Shown: in pieces, positions 12,138-40,249 of the stretch
Numbering within the stretch: position 1 is the stretch's first letter
Layout: each line of letters begins with the position of its first letter
Assembly: GCA_014904985.1 (NCBI GenBank)
Contig: MU128951.1
Coordinates: forward strand, 224,403 to 288,402
Reading direction: 5' to 3'
Source of the DNA: Hydnum rufescens UP504
Lineage: Eukaryota; Basidiomycota; Agaricomycetes; Cantharellales; Hydnaceae
DNA: 64,000 nt
Program-made: the position numbers and the translations under genes
Notes under the pieces: generated by a model
What the model saw: the letters and a program-made list of their open reading frames with translations, nothing else
Told to the model about the DNA's origin: nothing
Databases searched by the model: none

Positions 12138-12295
12138 CCAAACCAGTCAGCCATAATTGTTATATCTAGTTAGCCCTTTTGCCCTTGCTTTATTCAATCT
12201 AAGAGCGGGCTTTTAGGTGGGGGCCCCTGGGCCCACTGGGTGATTTCATGGCATGAGACAAGGGCCCCATGGGGGCCCCTTGCTCTGAACTTGCC
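12138..12295 (+). repeat. terminal fragment of the giant palindromic element family
   Basis: It starts CCAAACCAGTCAGCCATAATTG and runs through the GGTGGGGGCCCC block to GGGGCCCCTTGC. This matches both ends of the palindrome at 27,981-30,790 and diverges after about 160 bases. It is one isolated end of that family. Confidence 0.8.
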
Positions 12296-14923: not shown

Positions 14924-15385
14924 ATGTCCATATCTCTCCTTGCACATTCCTCTGATGACTCTGGGAATGATGATGCCATGGATGAGATTCAACCACTCAT
15001 GCAATGGCTATCATTTGGAGGCATGAATACAAATATTGCACATCCACATCCTTCAAATCCATTCCATATGACACCTGAACCACCACCACCACCACCACAC
15101 CCTGAACCACCCAATCCTGTTCCACCAGCACCAATGATGAAATTCTGTTCATGTGGACACATGCACCCAATCACATCCTTTACTGTGGACAAGAATGGTG
15201 TCTTACACAATCAGTGTGAGAACTGTTGTCAAGGGGATGCACAATATCAGCTATGTCAACAGGCACAGGATATTCCAGCACCTCCTGCAACAAATAATGA
15301 CTCCATTGCAGATCAGGATGGATACCAGGGGATGGGGAAACTAACCAGGCTTAATTATGAGGTCCCCCTGATAATTTGGGGCTGA
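14924..15385 (+). CDS. 153-residue ORF with Cys-rich ribbon-like motif
   Basis: Opens at ATG 14,924. It has an acidic N-terminus, a run of prolines alternating with His/Glu, then CSCGHMHPITSF followed about fifteen residues later by CENC, spaced like a zinc-ribbon (CxC...CxxC). The stop lies just inside the left arm of the 340-bp palindrome, so the C-terminus is probably truncated or fused to repeat sequence. I do not recognise a family. The setting suggests a mobile-element protein. Coding status is uncertain. Confidence 0.35.
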   Translation: MSISLLAHSSDDSGNDDAMDEIQPLMQWLSFGGMNTNIAHPHPSNPFHMTPEPPPPPPHPEPPNPVPPAPMMKFCSCGHMHPITSFTVDKNGVLHNQCENCCQGDAQYQLCQQAQDIPAPPATNNDSIADQDGYQGMGKLTRLNYEVPLIIWG

Positions 15386-15683
15386 GCTCAACATATCTCT
15401 AGCTCAACAAATCTCTTGTAGTTGTCAAAAAAAAAGTGGGCAATTATGTACAAAGATTAATCCAAAAATGCATACATACTCAAATCTTGTCCAAAAGTCT
15501 CCCTGATGACCAGGATGGTCATCAGGGAGACTTTTGGACAAGATTTGAGTATGTATGCATTTTTGGATTAATCTTTGTACATAATTGCCCACTTTTTTTT
15601 GACAACTACAAGAGATTTGTTGAGCTAGAGATATGTTGAGCTTGGCCCCAAATTATCAGGGGGACCTCATAATTAAGCCTGGT
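15344..15683. repeat. 340-bp near-perfect palindrome
   Basis: Left arm from ACCAGGCTTAATTATG to CTCCCTGATGACC; right arm is its reverse complement, ending CATAATTAAGCCTGGT. The centre is at about 15,513 with a spacer of about 5 bases (AGGAT). The arms differ only by a few bases (the A-run/T-run lengths and GCTGAGC versus GCTTGGC). Such an arm pair would extrude as a cruciform or fold as a long hairpin RNA. Confidence 0.9.
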
Positions 15684-16351
15684 ACAGATTTGTTTCCAGT
15701 TAGTTGATTTCCAAATGTGGCAGAGGGTGGTGCATTGCTGTCAAAGCATCTTGTGGGCTCTAAATCATTGAAACTCATAGATAATTTAGGGCTCTTGTAT
15801 TTTATTGAAACTCAGAAACAAATCTGTATTAGCACTGCCAGCCTCTGCTGGTCAGACAGAACCTGCCAACAATCCCCATTGCACTAGTCCCTTGACAGTT
15901 CAGTTTGAGGACTGGTCACAAGTCTAGACACTCCCTTCATTGCAAAATGCTCCCAGAAAATGACATTACTACATCCCTCAATTGAGCATGCTCACAAAAA
16001 GAGGCTTTTGATGGTCAGGGACATGTTGGTTGCGCCCAAGATGAGAGGCAGCATTGTCTGGAATTTCAATATGATAATATGGACTCTGGACACCATCACA
16101 AAAATAATGGATCAGCAAATCATGTAAAATTGAAAATTCTCTATTGATTTGAGTTGTGTTGTAAAGGCCAGATAAGCACAGATAAGGCCCTATTCAGATG
16201 CAAGAATCTGGATTCTTTTTTCAGATTCTACTAGTAAAGAAATGTAGATTGTTTCAGATTCTATATTTGGGAACAGAGACTGGACCTGGCTAAACTTCAT
16301 TGATCCCTCACCCCATTCCTCATCCTAACTGGCTTCTACCTCCAATTCACA

Positions 16352-17244: not shown

Positions 17245-18537
17245 GCATCTCCTAAGACCATGATGAGTCTCCCATGCTTAACTGCCTGGGTGTCACTATA
17301 AGTCCTTTTCTGTCTTCTCTTTTTTGTACTCCTTTGCACATATGCTGTGCATGTATTTCTTTCTCCTATCCTGTAGGCCATAAAATGGCCAATGTACATG
17401 GATATTATAAGCATTGGATCATTAAAGCCTGCCCTCACTCTGCTCAAGCACTTAGGCTCCCCCTATATTCATCTCTTCTCTCATCAAACAACACTTACAT
17501 AACCATTACTCATTCACTGGGTTATGGGCCCATTGCTGCTCTCCTAGAAAAAGAATTGATTTGAATTTTCCCCTCAATAATGACAAGAAACATGACTGAC
17601 AAATTTAAAATTAGGGTAACAAAATTGATGGCAGACAGCAACTCAGTCAGCCACAAATGTGTGTCTGGTTAAGACACTGCGCATTCATACTCATCCACTA
17701 TCCCTGTACTTCCCGGTATTTTCTTAAGCACCTGTGACTCAACACTGAGAGGAATTTGGTGACCAAGGATAGCTTAGAAATGACTGTCTGAAGAACTTCT
17801 TGGTTTCAGAATTGTATAACATAGCCCCAGTCAGGAGCTTTACAACTTGGAAAACTATGCTAATGAAAGATGCTTGTTTTGTGATTTTAAAGAGATTCGG
17901 GTCTGAGGCACCCAAGTTTTGGCCTATTCAAATAAGGAAATTGCCTTATTTGGAAGTACCCTTTTAAGGAAATTGCCATATTTGGATATTCCTTTTAAGG
18001 AAAATTTCCTCATTGGGATGGCCAAATTTGGCAGGCTTTCCCTAGACAGCCAGGCCTGTCATGAGCTGCCAACCAAGAAGTGCAACCATCAGGGCTATGC
18101 CTCAGCTTAAAGGGAATTGCATTAGAATCTGTACCACTACTCTCTATGTGATGGTAAGTGGTCAAGTTGAGTCAAGTCTGAATTTCTATAATTTTAAATC
18201 TTACATTTCAGGTTTTCAAACCAGTCTCTTCAGGGATGGATATTGATGTGGCCTTAATGGCTCGGAAGCAGTATGGGCTGCCAAAAAGTATCATGGGTAC
18301 TGCTACCTCCCACCTGAAATGGAGCATGACATAGACTCTGAGTACAGAGGCTTCCAGATGTGATTTACCTAGTAACTTTAGGCCATAGGGGTGTATAGCC
18401 AGTGGTGCTGACTTGATGAATGATCCCTCGATAAATTTGGCATCACACAAACATTACATAATCACTCCAGAGTTTACCAGATAGTGGATGAGTATGAATG
18501 CACAGTGTCTTAGATATTATCAGACTTGGATTTATAT
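17245..18537. other. unassigned CpG-poor sequence
   Basis: No gene recognised. Near 17,934-18,015 a unit of about 38 bases (AAGGAAATTGCC(T/A)TATTTGGA...) is repeated about three times. Confidence 0.4.
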
Positions 18538-27832: not shown

Positions 27833-27980
27833 GAGGGATAAATCCCTACACCATAGAAACCCCATCCGAGGCCGATTTTCCAACCAAACAAACGAACTGA
27901 TTGTCCATCCGATCCTTAATTTTCACATTGTTCATTCACTGGAGAAACAATCCAAATTCTACATGTCCGAAACCCATCAT
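27833..27980. repeat. fragment starting TGTTGGAGGGATAAATCCC
   Basis: Contains a GGGATAAATCCC hairpin and breaks the Gypsy pol. It is itself cut by the palindrome at 27,981. The TG start could be an LTR end, but no partner was seen in the window. Confidence 0.3.
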
Positions 27981-30790
27981 TCCAAACCAGTCAGCCATAA
28001 TTGTATATCTAGTTAGGCCCTTTTGCCTTGCTTTTATTTAGTCTAAGAGCGGGTTTTTAGGTGGGGGCCCCTGGGGCCCACTGGGTGATTTCATGGCATG
28101 AGACAAGGGGCCCCTGGGGGCCCCTCACCTTAGACTGCTAGTGGGACTTAGAGATTCTCAGACTTGCAGGACAGCGGGCCATATGGGCTTATTGGGGATA
28201 ATGTGTTCCACTATATGGTACATACCTGGTCAGCAGGAGGGTGAGGTTGAGGTTGAGGTTGAGATTGAGCACAGGGAGAGGGAGGAGCACTTGGTGGGGG
28301 GCAGGTCACCAGATTCATTCAGCAGTCATTGCATTATTGACTTGTTTATTTATTTATTTAGAAATTCTATTAACAAAAAAAAAATACCACACCCTTAGTG
28401 GGTGTCTGTAGGAATCAGAAAAAGAAACTACTTAGTAGCACCACACACCCACAGGCAGGTGTGTGGTACTGTCCATAGAAATCAAAAAAAGAACTACTCT
28501 GCGGGGGTGTGTACTGGTCTGCAGAAATAAAAATAAAAAAGAACTATTTAGTAGCACACCTGCTACGGTGGGTGTGGTACTGGGGGCATGGCTTGGTGGT
28601 TCACCTTTGGGCAGGTCATCTTGTTCACGGGTTTTGTTCCGGGATTTCATTTGGGGTGTGGGTTCCTGTTCTCGTGTATTTGTTCGGTGGCATTGCGGGT
28701 CTTCATCGAGGGTTCAAAAGAATACCTATGATAATAAGTAATAAGTTAGTAAAAAAAGAAAAACCCCACAAAAGGAGCAGCACATGCTGCTCCTTTTGCG
28801 CGGTCGTACTTATATATGGGGAATACTAACCTTGAAAATTATCACACCTGCCAAAGTGGGTGTGGGGTTCATCCAGGACTTCAGTGGCCTCATTGTGTGC
28901 GGGTTTCATTTATATGTTGCGGGAAATCGAGGTCGGGGGGTATGGGTGGCTGCATGGTCCCATGTTTTGCCCTGGGCCTGATCTGTGCATTCATCGAGTC
29001 GGATATCACACAGTAAATGTACCTAGAATAATGATATGTTAGTAAAGAAAAAAAAACGAAGGCAACACCAAAAGAGCAGCCAGGGCTGCTCTTTTGGTGT
29101 TGTGGTACAGCACATAATCAAAAAAAAACTCACCTACTAGTACCACACACCCGCTTCGGCGGGTGTATGGTACATGATTTCATCGATCGTTGTTTCAGGG
29201 GGCAGGCACTAGTGGCTTGGGTGGCTGCACATTGAATGTCACACTGGGGGCTCGTCTGTGTCTTCGTCAGCTTGTCAGGTGGGTTTTCACAGAGGGAATG
29301 TACCTAGAAGAACAAATGATAATACATTAGTAAAACAAAAAAGAAAGCAGAGGTGCCAAAGGAGCAGCAGAAGCTGCTCTTTTGGCACCTCTGCTTTCTT
29401 TTTTGTTTTACTAATGTATTATCATTCGTTCTTCTAGGTACATTCCCTCCATGAAAACCCACCCGACAAGCCGACGAAGACACAGACAAGCCCCCAGTGC
29501 GACATTCAATGCGCAGCCACCCAAGCCACTAGTGCCCACCCCCCGAAACAACGATCGATGAAATCATGTACCATACACCTGCCGAAGTGGGTGTGTGGTA
29601 CTAGTAGGTGAGTTTTTTTTTGATTATGTGCTGTACCGTGACGCCAAAAGAGCAGCCCTGGCTGCTCTTTTGGTGTTGCCTTCGTTTTTTTTTCTTTACT
29701 AACATATCATTATTCTAGGTACATTTACTGCATGATATCTGACCCAACGAATGCACAGATCAGGCCCAGGGCAAAACACGGGACCACGCAGCCACCCATA
29801 CCCCCCGACCTCGATTTCCTGCAACATATAAACGAAACCCGCACACAATGAGGCCACCAAAGTCCTGGATGAACCCCACACCTGCTTTGGCAGGTGTGAT
29901 AATTTTCAAGGTTAGTATTCCCCATATATAAGTACGACTGTGCAAAAGGAGCAGCATGTGCTGCTCCTTTTGCGGGGTTTTTCTTTTTTTACTAACTTAT
30001 TGCTTATTATCATAGGTATTCTTTTGAACCCTCAATGAAGACTCGCAATGCCACCGAACAAATACACGAGAACAGGAACCCACGCCCCAAACAAAATCCC
30101 AGAACAAAACCCGTGAACAAGATGACCTGCCCAAAGGTGAACCGCCAAGCCACGCCCCCGGTACCACACCCGCCATAGCAGGTGTGCTACTAAATAGTTC
30201 TTTTTTTTATTTTTATTTTTATTTCTGCAGACCAGTACACACCCCCACAGAGTAGTTCTTTTTTTTGATTTCTATGGACAGTACCACACACCTGCCTGTG
30301 GGTGTGTGGTGCTACTAAGTAGTTTCTTTTTCTGATTCCTACAGATGCCCACTAAGGGTGTGGTATTTTTTTTTTGTTAATAGAATTTCTAAATAAATAA
30401 ATAAACAAGTCAATAATGCAATGACTGCTGAATGAATCTGGTGACCTGCCCCCCCACCAAGTGCTCCTCCCTCTCCCTGTGCTCAATCTCAACCTCAACC
30501 TCAACCTCAACCTCCTGCTGACCAGGTATGTACCATATAGTGGAACACATTATCCCCAATAAGCCCATATGGCCTGCTGTCCTGCAAGTCTGAGAATCTC
30601 TAAGTCCCACTAGCAGTCTAAGGTGAGGGGCCCCCAGGGGCCCCTAGGGGCTCCATGGGGCCCCTTGTCTCATGCCATGAAATCACCCAGTGGGCCCCAG
30701 GGGCCCCCACCTAAAAACCCACTCTTAGACTAAATAAAAGCAAGGCAAAAGGGCCTAACTAGATATACAATTATGGCTGACTGGTTTGGA
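27981..30790. mobile_element. 2.8-kb giant palindrome made of stacked hairpins
   Basis: The two halves (27,981-29,370 and 29,371-30,790) are reverse complements over their whole length with scattered substitutions and small indels. The ends are TCCAAACCAGTCAGCC on each side. Inside each arm sit several shorter palindromes: AAAAGGAGCAGCA/TGCTGCTCCTTTT (28,769-28,798), a 19-bp stem with AACACCAAAAGAGCAGCC (29,063-29,102), a CACCCGC-TTCG-GCGGGTG tetraloop hairpin (29,147-29,165), CCACACACC/GGTGTGTGG (28,441-28,466), and the central GAGGTGCCAAAGGAGCAGC stem. No ORF with a domain. Related pieces at 12,138 and 36,073-40,180 show a family. Mobility is inferred from dispersal. No target duplication seen. 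Confidence 0.9.
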
Positions 30791-31295
30791 CCTGAGGTTT
30801 AGTTCCATTCAGGTCAGGTTCTGGTTTAAACCTGAAACCTGAGGTATGAGGGAAGCCAACATTTTCAGGGGGTACTACAGAATATCTACACCCTCTGCTC
30901 AAGTCTCTGCCTCTGCCATATCCTGCTTTAGATCCACATCTCCTTCCTAGCCCCCTTTCACTTGAATTTATTGCACATCTTCTGGAGATGGTATTTAGTC
31001 ACTACATTCTGTCATGTGACTTGTGACCTGCATCAATTACCTCATTTGATGGCCAAGTCATGTGACTTCTGACTCCAGAATAATGGTCAATTTACATGGA
31101 ATGGAACCTACACCCTACCTTTCAGATTCAGGTTTAAACCTGGTTTGAGACCAGTTTTTGGCTTCAGGGTAAGGGCAAAACCTGAACCTGACCTGAAGAA
31201 AATGAAATGAAACCTGACCCCAATGGAACCTGACCTGGGTCAGGTTCAGGTTTAAACTCAGGTTCCACAGGTTTAAACCTGAACCACAGCATCCA
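30791..31295 (-). mobile_element. CAGGTTTAAACCTG-rich dispersed element, copy 1
   Basis: About 500 bases with clustered palindromic CAGGTTTAAACCTG and TCAGGTTCAGG motifs at both ends. Inverted copy at about 46,865-47,420. The middle (CATTTTCAGGGGGTACTACAGAAT..., then CACATGACAGAATGTAGTGAC in copy 2 orientation) is also shared. No ORF. Confidence 0.75.
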
Positions 31296-35436: not shown

Positions 35437-36072
35437 AGGCTCATGATGTAGTATAGTGATTATGTAATAGTAATGTACATACATTGCATGACATTAGGGA
35501 GCTGCTGCAGTGAGCCTGTGGCTTCTCCCATCAAATTCTATGTTGTTTTGCTCCCCAGTGCAAGTTGAAGTAATGTGCCATTCATAGGAATGCAAGAATA
35601 CAAGAACTGAGCAGTGAGTATTCACTATTGGTTAAACCACTGACAGCTACCATTCCAGGTAATCCTCTGCCTTCTTTTTGTTGCCCTACCACTCCACTTC
35701 CACATGAGGCCAGGCCAAATGGGAAGTGGGACCACTATCTAGCCAGGCTAGGTAGGGTCTTTGAGTCAGTTGAACTAAGGACATGCTATGAGGCACATCC
35801 CTTATATTCTTCTGGAACTCACACATCTGCACTCACTCAAGACACACCTATCACACATCTCTGCCTATTCTCTCTTGTGTCCTACCATCTTGCTTCCCCC
35901 CTGTTCGTACCTTCCTATGTGCTTCCCTTGGCTATGCATTCAACTACTCTCAGTTTATGACAGTTTACTCATAGCACATTATTACACATGATTTCAGGTT
36001 TGAACCTGGGTTAAACCTGACCTGAACCTGACTTTGGCAACCATACATATAAGCACCTGAGGGAGGAAGATG
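35437..36072. other. unassigned CpG-poor sequence
   Basis: No gene. Ends with a CAGGTTTGAACCTGGGTTAAACCTG cluster (35,995-36,030), a small piece of the CAGGTTTAAACCTG element. Confidence 0.4.
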
Positions 36073-36300
36073 GACCACACCCACTGCAGGTGTGGTTATT
36101 TAAGGTATGTATTTCTTCATTTAGCTGCAATTGCACAGGCTGGTCAGCCAATTATCCATGTCTAATTAGATATCATTAGCCTTGCATTTATCTAGTCTAA
36201 TAAGATACATTTCCATGGGGGCCCCTAGAGACCCCTCATGTATGATTATCATCCATGCCCATATGCTGAGGGGCCCCCACTCTTGATCTAGGGGCCCCAG

Positions 36301-39300
36301 TAGTGTTGCCACAACTTGACTTGGCATGATGTGACTCAACTTATGGACAACTTCCAGTGACTTCTGACAACTTATGACTTCCTATGACTTTGGAGTTGCA
36401 AGTCAGGTTGTGACTTGCAACTCAAGTCAACTTAAGTTGTTGGGCTTTTCCATATCTACATATATGGAAATATTGACTAATCAAACAGTCCAGCCTTTGT
36501 GCAAAACTCTTTAAAGTTCCTGGCATCAGTGCCAAGCATCATGTCTAGAATTGAATGTGAATCATGCTCTGGCTCCATTTCAGTGGGATCTGTCTGCCAG
36601 CCTTCCATGAAATTCAGGCAGTTCTTTTTCAGCATGAACTTGAGCATCTGTAATGCCTCCATAATATTGGGTTTGAGTTGACTATGCTACTTTGTCATTG
36701 TCTCCAAGCTGGAAGAAAAAATTCATTCACACAGGACTGAGGTTGCTTGGATCAGCAAGTAATCCATGGCTATGCAAAATAATGTTGGATACATGTGTTC
36801 ATTTTCCTATAAAGCATGAAATTAATGAGAGCCCCCAGGAAGTGTTAAAGTGATGCACCTGCCAGTACTCCAGGATAGGTTTTTGCCAGTGAGCTCGCCC
36901 TGACCCAATGTAGTGTTCATATTCTTCATCAACATTCTTCAGTTCATCCATGTTGTCATCGGAATCTATAAGACCAAGCATTATGCAGATGGCCTCAGAG
37001 GGTTGCTTCTTCCAGACAGCAGGTGTGGACAAGGTGGTTTTATCCTTTTGTAACTTGAATTGGAATTAGTCATTGGGATTTAGTTATGGGGAAGTGTATA
37101 TACCTCATCTTTTACCCACTTCATTACCATCTCCACCTCAAGTGGGGTCCATTGCCTGGTGATGAATGCCATCTTGATTCAGGGATTGAGGACTGTTTAG
37201 CAATCAGGAGGTATGTAGGTTGATTTCCATGTCAAGTCACATAGGGAGAATATAACAGATACCTGTGGCAATTGCATATGCAGGAGTTTTTCCTGCCTTC
37301 TCATGATACTTATCTAGCTGTTCCATTCCCTGCAGAATGAATGGTGAAAGATCTGGGTTGGCAGTGGCATATCATTCCCATTTATTCTGAAGGGATTGGA
37401 AGGCAGGGAGTGTGCCACCAAGTATGGGGGTTGCCTTGCCAGACATGAGCTGTTGGGCCAAATGGGGGGGCTTTCAAATAATATCTGTCAGTATATATCT
37501 CTGGTGAAGTAAGCAGGAGTCATCATTACCTCAAGTATCCCCTGTATTTTCTGGGCCATTATCCATTCTTCCACTCTCAGTGTTTTGTCTTGTGCATCTT
37601 GAAAGATCTGTCACTGAAAAACATCTTCTACTGCCTACATGAAGTGAGTGTACACACAGCCCATACTAGAAGCTTGAAAGAATGAATTTACATACAGGAC
37701 ATGCTGGTAGTATCCTTTCCAACATCCCAAAAACAGAATCCCACCTTGTATCAATGTCATGATGGAGTTCCAATTCTGCAATTGATGGGGTATACTCCTC
37801 CTTTTTATTGCCATCTTATATGGTACTCAAGAAAGCCTCATGGCAATCTCCAGAAGCTTGAATAGCATGGACTAATGAGTGAACCCAACCAATAGTGCCA
37901 CCTGCTGGGGCCTTTTTCAGAACCATAAGGACATGCTGGACTGTGACATTGATTACATGAGCAAAGCATCTGAAAAAACTGTGTTGTAAGGTTCATCTTT
38001 TGTGTCATATGGAGACTACATACCAAACACAATTATCTTGGCATGAGAATGGGGTGCCTCAGGCATCCAAAACTTTCTCTAGTGCAGCCATAAATATGTC
38101 ATTATTGGTGGCATTATCTAGAGTCCACCATCCAACCTAGAAACCCCCAAATTCAGTGTTCATAATAGGGATGGAGATAGAGAATTCTCATACCTTTTTG
38201 ACCACATTAGCATGCTCAAGGACCTCCATGGCACCTTGGCATATTGCTTTCCCAGTATGACTTCCAGGCAGATAGTGGAAGGCAATAAGGTTGGCTCGGA
38301 GATGCAGTGAGCCATCTGGCATTCTCTGTATTCAATGGGCCATTACTGCAAGAAATGGTTGAAGTCAGCAGTCTGACCATATATCAGCTGTGAATGAGAT
38401 TTTCCCTAATGAACCCTTTACATTTATAGTACTTTGCTTCATTATTCAGTTCTAAGTGAAAGGGCTTCTAATTCTGTTTTAAGCTTCAAAAAATCCTCAC
38501 ACCACATGTCAAGGATGGATACTCTAATTTTTGTGCAGCGTGGGATATCATCATCCATGAGTGTTTCTTGTAAGTAGAGAAGTAACTGGCAAAATTCTGG
38601 ACATTCAATGGAGTTCATGGCCTGGAAATTTAACATGGTAACATCATTGTGGGTGCAGCTGGGACATGCAATAAAACTACATACCTGGTCATCAGCCACA
38701 ATCCACTGAGTAATATGGTGAGTAAGGCCAGCAGGACTGAACTCCATCCTCCTTCAAGTCATTGTGGACCCTTGTGAATCATTCTCATTGTCTGAAACTT
38801 TCTCACAGAGAGACATAATCACAATTGTCCACCCTGTCTGCTTGCATATGTCAACATACTCTCTCAGGTGATTCCTCTCTAGGTGTAGATGGAGAGTGGT
38901 GTTGCTAGCTTGGTGATATCTCCAAGTACAGTGCTTGAGAGTAGGATATGTAGGAGGGTCATCATATATTCCCCTGGGCCACATACCAGTTGGCTTTGTG
39001 CCAACATAAGTAATTGGTGGACATGCACTTGCATAATTGGCATTCTGAGCTGACTCCTTTTTTGTGGTTAAATTCTTGGAAAAAATATTGTATATCATGG
39101 GCTGTGTGTGCTTGCTTTTGCTCTTTATAAGTAACAGGTGTGTATGGCAGAGAGCAAGATGTGAGCAGTGGGCAGCCAGGAGTCACTGGTCCATTAGTTT
39201 GAGGTTGTGTGTCAGATGGCAAACCTGTTGTCAGAGCAGGGTCAATAGTGACAGTTTTAGCATGCTTTGAGGGATCATGTGCTTCATCATGGAGCCACCT

Positions 39301-39638
39301 CTTGAGCATATAGACTGTTATGGAAGGGACAGGAAAGGCACTGAATGAGCCAGAATTTTCCAGAATTTTTCCCCCAAGAATACAGGTATATGCCCTATTA
39401 CTATGTATACTTTGTTTGAGGTTTACTGTTGTGTAATAATGCATTTCTGGTTGGAACTCAGGGGCTGCTAAGTACATAAAACTATTGTGATTGAGAGTCA
39501 GTTCAAGTCAACTCCAGCAACTTGACTTGTGACTTGGGAGTCATGGAAGCAACTCAACTTGACTTGGCTTCAGAGCAGTTTCTGTGCAACTTGACTTGCA
39601 ACTTGAGTCAGCTTAAGCCATAAGTTGCAGCAACACTA
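36301..39638 (-). mobile_element. hAT DNA transposon, 3.3 kb, with 8-bp target duplication
   Basis: Terminal inverted repeats TAGTGTTGCCACAACTT (36,301) and, inverted, TAGTGTTGCTGCAACTT (ending 39,638). Exact 8-bp direct repeats GGCCCCAG at 36,293-36,300 and 39,639-39,646 flank it. Subterminal regions are dense in (A)CTTGACTTG repeats. The interior encodes a hAT transposase relic on the minus strand. Confidence 0.95.
36480..39477 (-). pseudogene. hAT-family transposase, inactivated
   Basis: Reading downward: BED-finger-like segment (HLHLERNHLREYVDIC, about 38,850), then FSPAGLTHHITQWIVADDQ (about 38,700), the core start FTADIWSDC (about 38,390), LIAFHYLPGSHTGKAICQGA (about 38,240), and the LDNATNNDIFM asparagine-rich motif (about 38,100). 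At the C-terminus lies the hATC dimerisation region (ATSVLCE-stop-IFSSSLETMTK-stop-HSQLKPNIMEALQMLK, about 36,630-36,750). The stops in that block replace Arg codons (CGA to TGA), and frames shift elsewhere. Dead copy; the first BED cysteines are not visible. Confidence 0.88.
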
Positions 39639-40249
39639 GGCCCCAGGGGCCCCACAGCCATGTTTAAGGCCTAGAAATGGCCTCAGACCCTACTCCAAAG
39701 GGGCCCCTGCATGTGCAGCAGGGGCCCAATTGCACCAGAAGAGCAGCCACAGGCTGCTCTTCTTGGGTGCATGGGTGAGCCCCCCTGGGCAAGCCTACCA
39801 ATGTATACAGGAATAATAATATAGTAATAATAATCCTATGGCCAGGGCCCCTGGAGGCCCCCACATGTAAAGACCTAGTTAGATATAATAAATGTAATGC
39901 CCATTATGCCTAATATGATGCAGAAAAGTGACTGACCAGGCTGATCATTTGTGGGGATTTCATTCAGGGTGGCATGTTTGCCTGGGTTCTCATTGATGTG
40001 TTCATGTGGTTTTCAGTTTGGACAAACAGTCATGAACTAAAACATAAGAATATGTTAGTTAAGATTTAAAACAGCACAAGAAGAGTAACCTGTGGCTGCA
40101 CTTCTTGTGTGGCACAGTACCAGAGAGAGCAATACTTACCTTAAATGACCACACACCCACTGCAGCAGGCATGGTTCCTGGGGCCACACATTGGCTCTGC
40201 ATCACTTCCTACCTTCATCTGGTGGGTGGTCCTTCTTTGCCTGCACAGT

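Follow-up and report, generated by a model that had tools for sequence, protein, structure and literature searches.

A kilobase-scale palindrome in Hydnum rufescens is likely a fusion of two arms of a transposon family with outward arrays of predicted hairpin introns

Introduction

How does a genome come to hold an almost perfect palindrome of 2.8 kb without a gene in it, and what is such a structure made of? The question is raised by positions 27981-30790 of a 64,000-nucleotide stretch of contig MU128951.1 of the basidiomycete Hydnum rufescens UP504 (Cantharellales), a stretch referred to here as the window. The original prediction for this locus, made from the letters alone, described a giant non-coding palindrome built from nested stable hairpins of two recurring types, and suggested a foldback transposon, a cruciform-based replicating or integrating DNA or a source of double-stranded and small RNAs. 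We compared the palindrome with its relatives across the 63-Mb genome and consider it probable that the locus is a fusion of two left arms from a family of elements that is likely non-coding, would be moved by a KDZ transposase, and carries outward arrays of predicted hairpin introns. The family itself, its termini, the target duplications in eight of nine copies, the structure and orientation of the units and the compensatory changes in both stems are read directly from the DNA, and are presented below before the interpretations that we attach to them.

Results

The region is near-wholly self-complementary, as had been proposed, in paired arms of 840 nt (94%), 196 and 195 nt (99%), 145 nt (97%) and 56 nt (98%), and its stop-to-stop frames are all shorter than 150 aa, in agreement with the predicted lack of a coding gene. 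Comparison with other copies sets the ends of the palindromic element at 27983..30788 (no strand) and divides it into two left-type arms placed head to head, the left arm at 27983..29370 on the minus strand and the right arm at 29371..30788 on the plus strand, each composed of predicted exon-intron units that read outwards. The left terminus CAAACCAGTCAGCC (27983..27996, plus strand) was identified from sequence and from the other copies, and a second left-type terminus occupies 30775..30788 on the minus strand, at the end where ordinary copies have GGCTGACCAGGCTG. The left flank, CATCATTC (27975..27982, plus strand), and the right flank, GACCTGAG (30789..30796, plus strand, by sequence), do not form a target duplication.

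Both recurring hairpin types are present at a spacing of 288-299 bp, one of them with a TTCG loop at 29155-29158. Two predicted introns of 111 nt, with the signals GTGAGT...TACTAAC...TCTAG, lie at 29023..29133 on the minus strand (AGCAGC hairpin 29063-29102; match to model R1 at 29023-29183, 132.5 bits) and at 29608..29718 on the plus strand (AGCAGC hairpin 29641-29676; R1 match 29558-29718, 124.5 bits). Exon hairpins stand upstream of their donors, at 29140..29173 on the minus strand, where the TTCG loop is found, and at 29569..29602 on the plus strand. A further pair of predicted introns, recognised by reading, has the unusual donor GTTAGT, which falls outside our donor rule, GTRNGT; these are at 28726..28830 on the minus strand (AGCAGC hairpin 28767-28800; R1 match 28726-28880, 114.7 bits) and at 29911..30015 on the plus strand (AGCAGC hairpin 29942-29973; R1 match 29861-30015, 116.3 bits). 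The outer units carry a CACACC hairpin (28437..28470, minus strand; 30280..30313, plus strand) and no AGCAGC hairpin. At the centre of the palindrome (29342..29399, no strand) is an extended AGCAGC intron hairpin whose two flanks are both of acceptor type; the usual donor is absent, and a GTGGGT farther off gives a 159-nt match on each strand. An Rfam search of the window gave no match at gathering scores. The palindrome is an atypical copy of its family, and its hairpins sit in intron-like and exon-like units.

Aligned over their whole length, the arms disagree at 55 of 1,390 bases and also differ in length; 52 of these 55 differences are transitions and 32 fall at CpG in either arm. Divergence between the arms is 5.7% in the inner part and 1.1% in the outer part, and the same gradient is seen between the arms and their nearest other copies (inner 6.2-7.2%, outer 1.4-2.2%); hence, its source is the sequence itself, not the way in which the palindrome arose. 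The original claim that stems are kept between the arms while spacers vary finds no backing here, since differences between the inner arms affect 11 of 158 bases in hairpins and 35 of 642 elsewhere (Fisher p = 0.45). It is in comparisons between units, not between arms, that stems prove to be conserved through compensatory changes.

Besides the palindrome, at least 11 places in the genome agree with its left half at 1,260 or more of 1,390 bases, and there are many partial matches; these copy counts are lower bounds, as only the best candidates were scored. The possibility of a single copy with no relatives, which had been posed together with a call for a copy count, therefore does not hold. 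Ordinary copies are 4.8-6.2 kb long and end in CAAACCAGTCAGCC and CAGCCTGGTCAGCC; the left end is either CAAACCAGTCAGCC or CAACTCAGTCAGCC, and the right end GGCTGACCAGGCTG. The standard copy, L010 (2983-7794), consists of a left arm, a central palindrome of ~604 bp and a right arm. Two further families, B (L024 and L026) and C (L036), have the same plan at roughly 66-87% local identity. An 8-bp target duplication flanks eight of the nine standard copies that have both ends in hand, being exact in six (L010, L016, L017, L018, L024 and L026) and containing a single mismatch in two (L011 and L020); the duplications of L016 and L020 were read off the printed sequence. The remaining testable copy, L012, is an ordinary one with no target duplication. 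Judged from its sequence, this anatomy is that of a DNA transposon family.

The central palindromes of family A carry mirrored TATATA motifs in all three copies compared. A core, TGCCTTCAAT, is common to the central palindromes of families A (L010 6200-6233) and C (L036, about 3008). Left termini of families A and B with no array behind them are seen in the window at 12139-12280 and 17639-17671, and a separate palindrome of ~300 bp with near-identical arms, by eye unlike the hairpin family, lies at about 15360-15690. Elsewhere in the window is a Rieske protein, for which the named relative with the highest score belongs to Clavulina. One locus considered as an autonomous copy, L031 (C53), was set aside; by eye, its long open reading frames belong to a Ty3-type LTR element nested in the hairpin element.

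In ordinary copies two arrays of ~280-bp units run outwards from the central palindrome. Each unit has, in order, an exon of ~170 nt ending in the CACACC hairpin, the junction AG/GTGAGT, and an intron of ~109 nt with the AGCAGC hairpin, TACTAAC and TCTAG. A regular expression that places the AGCAGC hairpin between a donor and a (T/A)ACTAA(C/T)...TAG acceptor recovers seven introns on the minus strand of the L010 left arm. The window and 27 fetched loci together hold 214 AGCAGC hairpins, at 157 of which donor, branch point and acceptor occur in order (141 on one strand, 16 on both); the full set of signals is absent at the other 57 under the fixed rule, and 175 pass a looser splice rule. When the flanks were shuffled base by base, a mean of 15.3 of 214 passed under a control rule slightly laxer than the fixed one. 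The strand bias comes from the flanks, because the hairpin is symmetric.

The 141 introns assigned to one strand have a median length of 109 nt (quartiles 104-111), with the donor GTGAGT in 77, TACTAAC in the branch region in 58 and the acceptor TCTAG/G in 65. Orientation is outward for 81 of 84 assigned introns in the 11 copies with a defined centre, the three others being in L016, L018 and L020. The CACACC hairpin lies in the exon, and is found within 80 nt in 106 of the 141 units; its core ends 13 nt before the donor in 77 of these 106, the hairpin spans a median of -39 to -8 from the donor, and positions -20..-24 are covered in every one of the 106. Inside the exon hairpin, GTGTGTGG is an alternative donor match; the fixed rule places the donor downstream. 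Transcription and splicing of the arrays are predicted, and it is splice signals in the DNA that suggest the introns would be removed from RNA. Recursive splicing was rejected, as exon starts match GTRNGT in only 2 of 141 units, though 91 begin with GT. No spliced, retroposed genomic copy was found with a junction pattern allowing three mismatches or fewer; its 25 matching places were all read as donor variants of unspliced units.

Both hairpins, 102 of the 141 units having them together with an intron of 90-130 nt, were aligned using the 29 units below 85% mutual identity (alignment A1). Compensatory change, on both sides of the pair, is seen in 12 of 29 pairs. Covariation in A1 reaches 53 cells compared with 21.1 in shuffles, and not one of 500 shuffles attained the true value on any of the five measures used, although these counts are not probabilities, as alignment A1 also served to derive the structure and its sequences share ancestry. 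Slid controls lie far lower than the true covariation. Both stems covary, and the intron hairpin has 18 modelled pairs. Genome-wide, 3,872 places have its exact core, AGAGCAGCNNNNGCTGCTCT, and one has the reversed pattern; at ~280 bp per unit, and with places inside and outside arrays pooled, the core sites would amount to at least 1 Mb.

Several observations bear on the transposase that moves the family. The genome has at least 154 matches to KDZ (Kyakuja-Dileera-Zisupton) transposases (from 150 candidates scored out of 584). One KDZ element, on C232, carries PF18758 at 1e-55 with a CxC1 domain upstream, and ends in GTCTGACCAGCCTG. Read inwards and with at most one mismatch, CAGGCTGGTCAGACAG occurs at 97 places in the genome, and stands at the element end in all 24 KDZ matches that reach an end, the C232 element included. 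The family right end, CAGCCTGGTCAGCC, is identical to the KDZ terminus, CAGGCTGGTCAGAC, at 12 of 14 bases, and an 8-bp target duplication is reported for Zisupton (PMC12730594); on the strength of this terminus and this duplication, a KDZ transposase likely moves the family. The hairpin family shares with KDZ transposons CA...TG ends as well, and differs from them in its left terminus, identical at only 9 of 14 bases, in its interior of hairpin-intron arrays, and in that no transposase gene was found in it. No copy with both a hairpin array and a KDZ gene was found, nor were the far KDZ end and its target duplication, looked for in 3 kb of C2 and by a junction pattern. Tandem repeats of about 120 bp lie upstream of the KDZ gene in L037 (2728-3767).

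A hAT domain inside 36136-39943 of the window had raised hAT as a partner, and the 8-bp target duplication of the family also fits hAT. This candidate was rejected; the window hAT (36301-39638), the sole hAT compared, is nested and broken, has TAGTGTTGCC termini that the family does not share, and has its own 8-bp duplication, GGCCCCAG. The short element that it splits, at 36136-39943, has CAGGCTGGTCAGCC ends, and its end at 36136 is identical to the KDZ end at 13 of 14 bases. Array remnants lie on both sides of this short element (R1 matches 36062-36195 and 40037-40187).

Discussion

Left-type arms occur on both sides of a centre in three copies, the window palindrome, L027 and L015, and each centre is self-complementary: an AGCAGC intron hairpin in the window, a CACACC exon hairpin in L027 and the native central palindrome in L015. 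The window and L027 palindromes have no target duplication in their flanks, and L015 is truncated at its left end. The sequence makes it likely that, in the window, the left arms of two copies have been joined head to head, that the high-copy transposon they come from encodes no protein, and that recombination between oppositely oriented copies produced the join. Recombination of opposed copies inside a hairpin predicts a centre bordered by acceptor halves, and around the window centre the acceptor half of one and the same intron does occur on either side. An error of assembly, joining two separate elements at a repeated hairpin, seems improbable to us: the repeats at which the joins lie are indeed short and self-complementary, and contigs break off within at least three element copies (those on C460, C377 and C383), but arms 4% apart with different indel forms do not come from a fold-back read of a single molecule, and L027 and L015 provide two more palindromes with other centres. 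Somewhat more weight, though still that of an unlikely alternative, is due to a second arm that arose by fold-back, template-switch duplication of the first and not by recombination of two copies. The central hairpin would be able to prime fold-back synthesis, and over all sites the window arms are nearest to each other (3.84%, against 4.3-4.7% for the next copies); this mutual proximity, broken at non-CpG sites alone by a tie with C134 at seven differences each, leaves room for such a duplication. However, at those non-CpG sites the arms are no closer together than to C134, new flanks would be needed at both ends, and the left arm has a short indel form in common with C13, whereas the right arm has a long form in common with C104, C134, C377, C169 and C192R, though slippage could recur and could itself be an alternative source of these forms.

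Returning to the interior of the family under the fusion reading, we take its exons, and hence its RNA, to be likely non-coding. The other possibility, that they encode a repetitive protein with one repeat of ~51 aa per exon and that the copies are decayed genes, draws on the 15 proteins retrieved with one exon ORF, of which 14 belong to the Hydnum rufescens annotation and the remaining one to a metagenome contig, on an excess of open frames over a Markov control (44 of 62 exons, which are not independent, against 45%), on several stops that by reading look like CGA to TGA changes, and on the public gene model P0125 (163 aa), which maps completely on the outward strand of L016. Yet the lengths of internal exons fall in all three phases (24, 19 and 19 of 62) with no common frame, homologous exons differ by one base between copies (169-170 and 171-172, for example), and none of the six exon ORFs tried had a Pfam family above cut-off. 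Of the four introns in P0125, three end at predicted acceptors, but all four begin within the exon hairpin instead of at the donor beyond it, and the other three of the four public models tried did not map to their loci under the settings used. We regard a decayed gene as rather improbable. Very little probability attaches to the suggestion that the hairpins are transposase-binding or DNA-structure motifs with incidental splice-like signals; subterminal motifs are often repeated in Foldback and other DNA elements, but here the hairpin is symmetric, and the signals beside it are strand-specific, spaced as in an intron and directed outwards. Just as doubtful is the palindrome as a source of double-stranded and small RNAs, one of the originally proposed roles. 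RNA transcribed right through the window palindrome would form a double-stranded fold of about 1.4 kb, but the ordinary copies read are not full palindromes, the two predicted outward transcripts are of the same sense and not complementary, and the 18 modelled pairs of the intron hairpin make a stem that is short for Dicer.

P0121 (182 aa), from a metagenome contig of 1,892 bp, is 53% identical to an L017 exon ORF; on this sequence match, arrays of such a kind may exist outside the present genome.

For the preferred reading, a fused copy of a likely non-coding family, we can sketch how the element might work. Serving as a bidirectional promoter, the central palindrome would start one transcript in each outward direction; the mirrored TATATA motifs of family A are in line with this, the other families being less clear. 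Many introns would be removed from each transcript, and the intron hairpin would draw the donor close to the branch point. The exon hairpin would either alter loading of the exon junction complex or mask a possible donor, GTGTGT, in its stem; in human cells this complex sits at -20..-24, and RNA structure can affect its binding (PMC6224609). The many introns would keep the RNA of the element expressed, and its chromatin thereby open to transposase, an idea drawn from the basidiomycete Cryptococcus, where removal of introns greatly lowers RNA accumulation and the effects of intron number and position are cumulative (PMC3744415). Each hairpin reads the same on both strands, so that recombination could take place at hairpins between copies in opposite orientation; this would delete the intervening DNA and leave a giant palindrome between two unrelated outer target sites. 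Taken to its full extent, this would describe a gene-less transposon whose cargo is splicing, which makes divergent RNAs through its own structured introns, covers the exon-junction-complex site at every junction with a covarying exon hairpin, lets its RNA escape both decay and silencing, and offers its hairpins as hot spots for fusion; we put this forward tentatively, as a proposal that may well prove wrong.

Compared with known systems, the foldback assignment stands in part. The family is a multi-copy DNA element: its termini are inverted, it makes 8-bp target duplications, and its long, modular arms lie inverted about a centre. The Foldback element Tm1 (Mutator/Foldback; PMC3169594) likewise has long modular arms of variable length and non-coding copies. 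Against the assignment, ordinary copies are not full palindromes, the window copy lacks a target duplication, and the hairpins sit in outward exon-intron-like units; Tm1 has 9-bp duplications, not 8-bp, and a Mutator-type transposase, and its abstract says nothing of exon-intron units. For a replicating cruciform DNA we found nothing in favour. Near-identical structured introns that multiply in a fungus are also known as introners, introner-like elements and symmetrical stwintrons (PMC8469720 and PMC9860276); those are single insertions into genes, and the Hypoxylaceae introns described there have inverted repeats at their ends and no target duplications, whereas the introns here form arrays inside a transposon without a known gene. 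MITEs and other non-autonomous elements with terminal inverted repeats resemble the family in their inverted termini, target duplication, high copy number and lack of a transposase, and differ from its length of 4.8-6.2 kb and its ordered, structured units. No description of outward intron arrays in a transposon was met in the literature that could be searched. The class of mobility is thus already known, and it is the interior that has neither an Rfam match, in the window, nor a published description in that literature.

The load of CpG transitions would predict methylation. The fused copies suggest a route from short self-complementary units to kilobase palindromes. If the reading given here is true, thousands of near-uniform, strand-polarised predicted introns would constitute a natural library for relating RNA structure to splicing and to junction-complex loading, and the genome of H. 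rufescens would harbour a transposon whose interior is kept for RNA processing and not for protein, which would bear on how introns multiply and on how mobile elements evade silencing.
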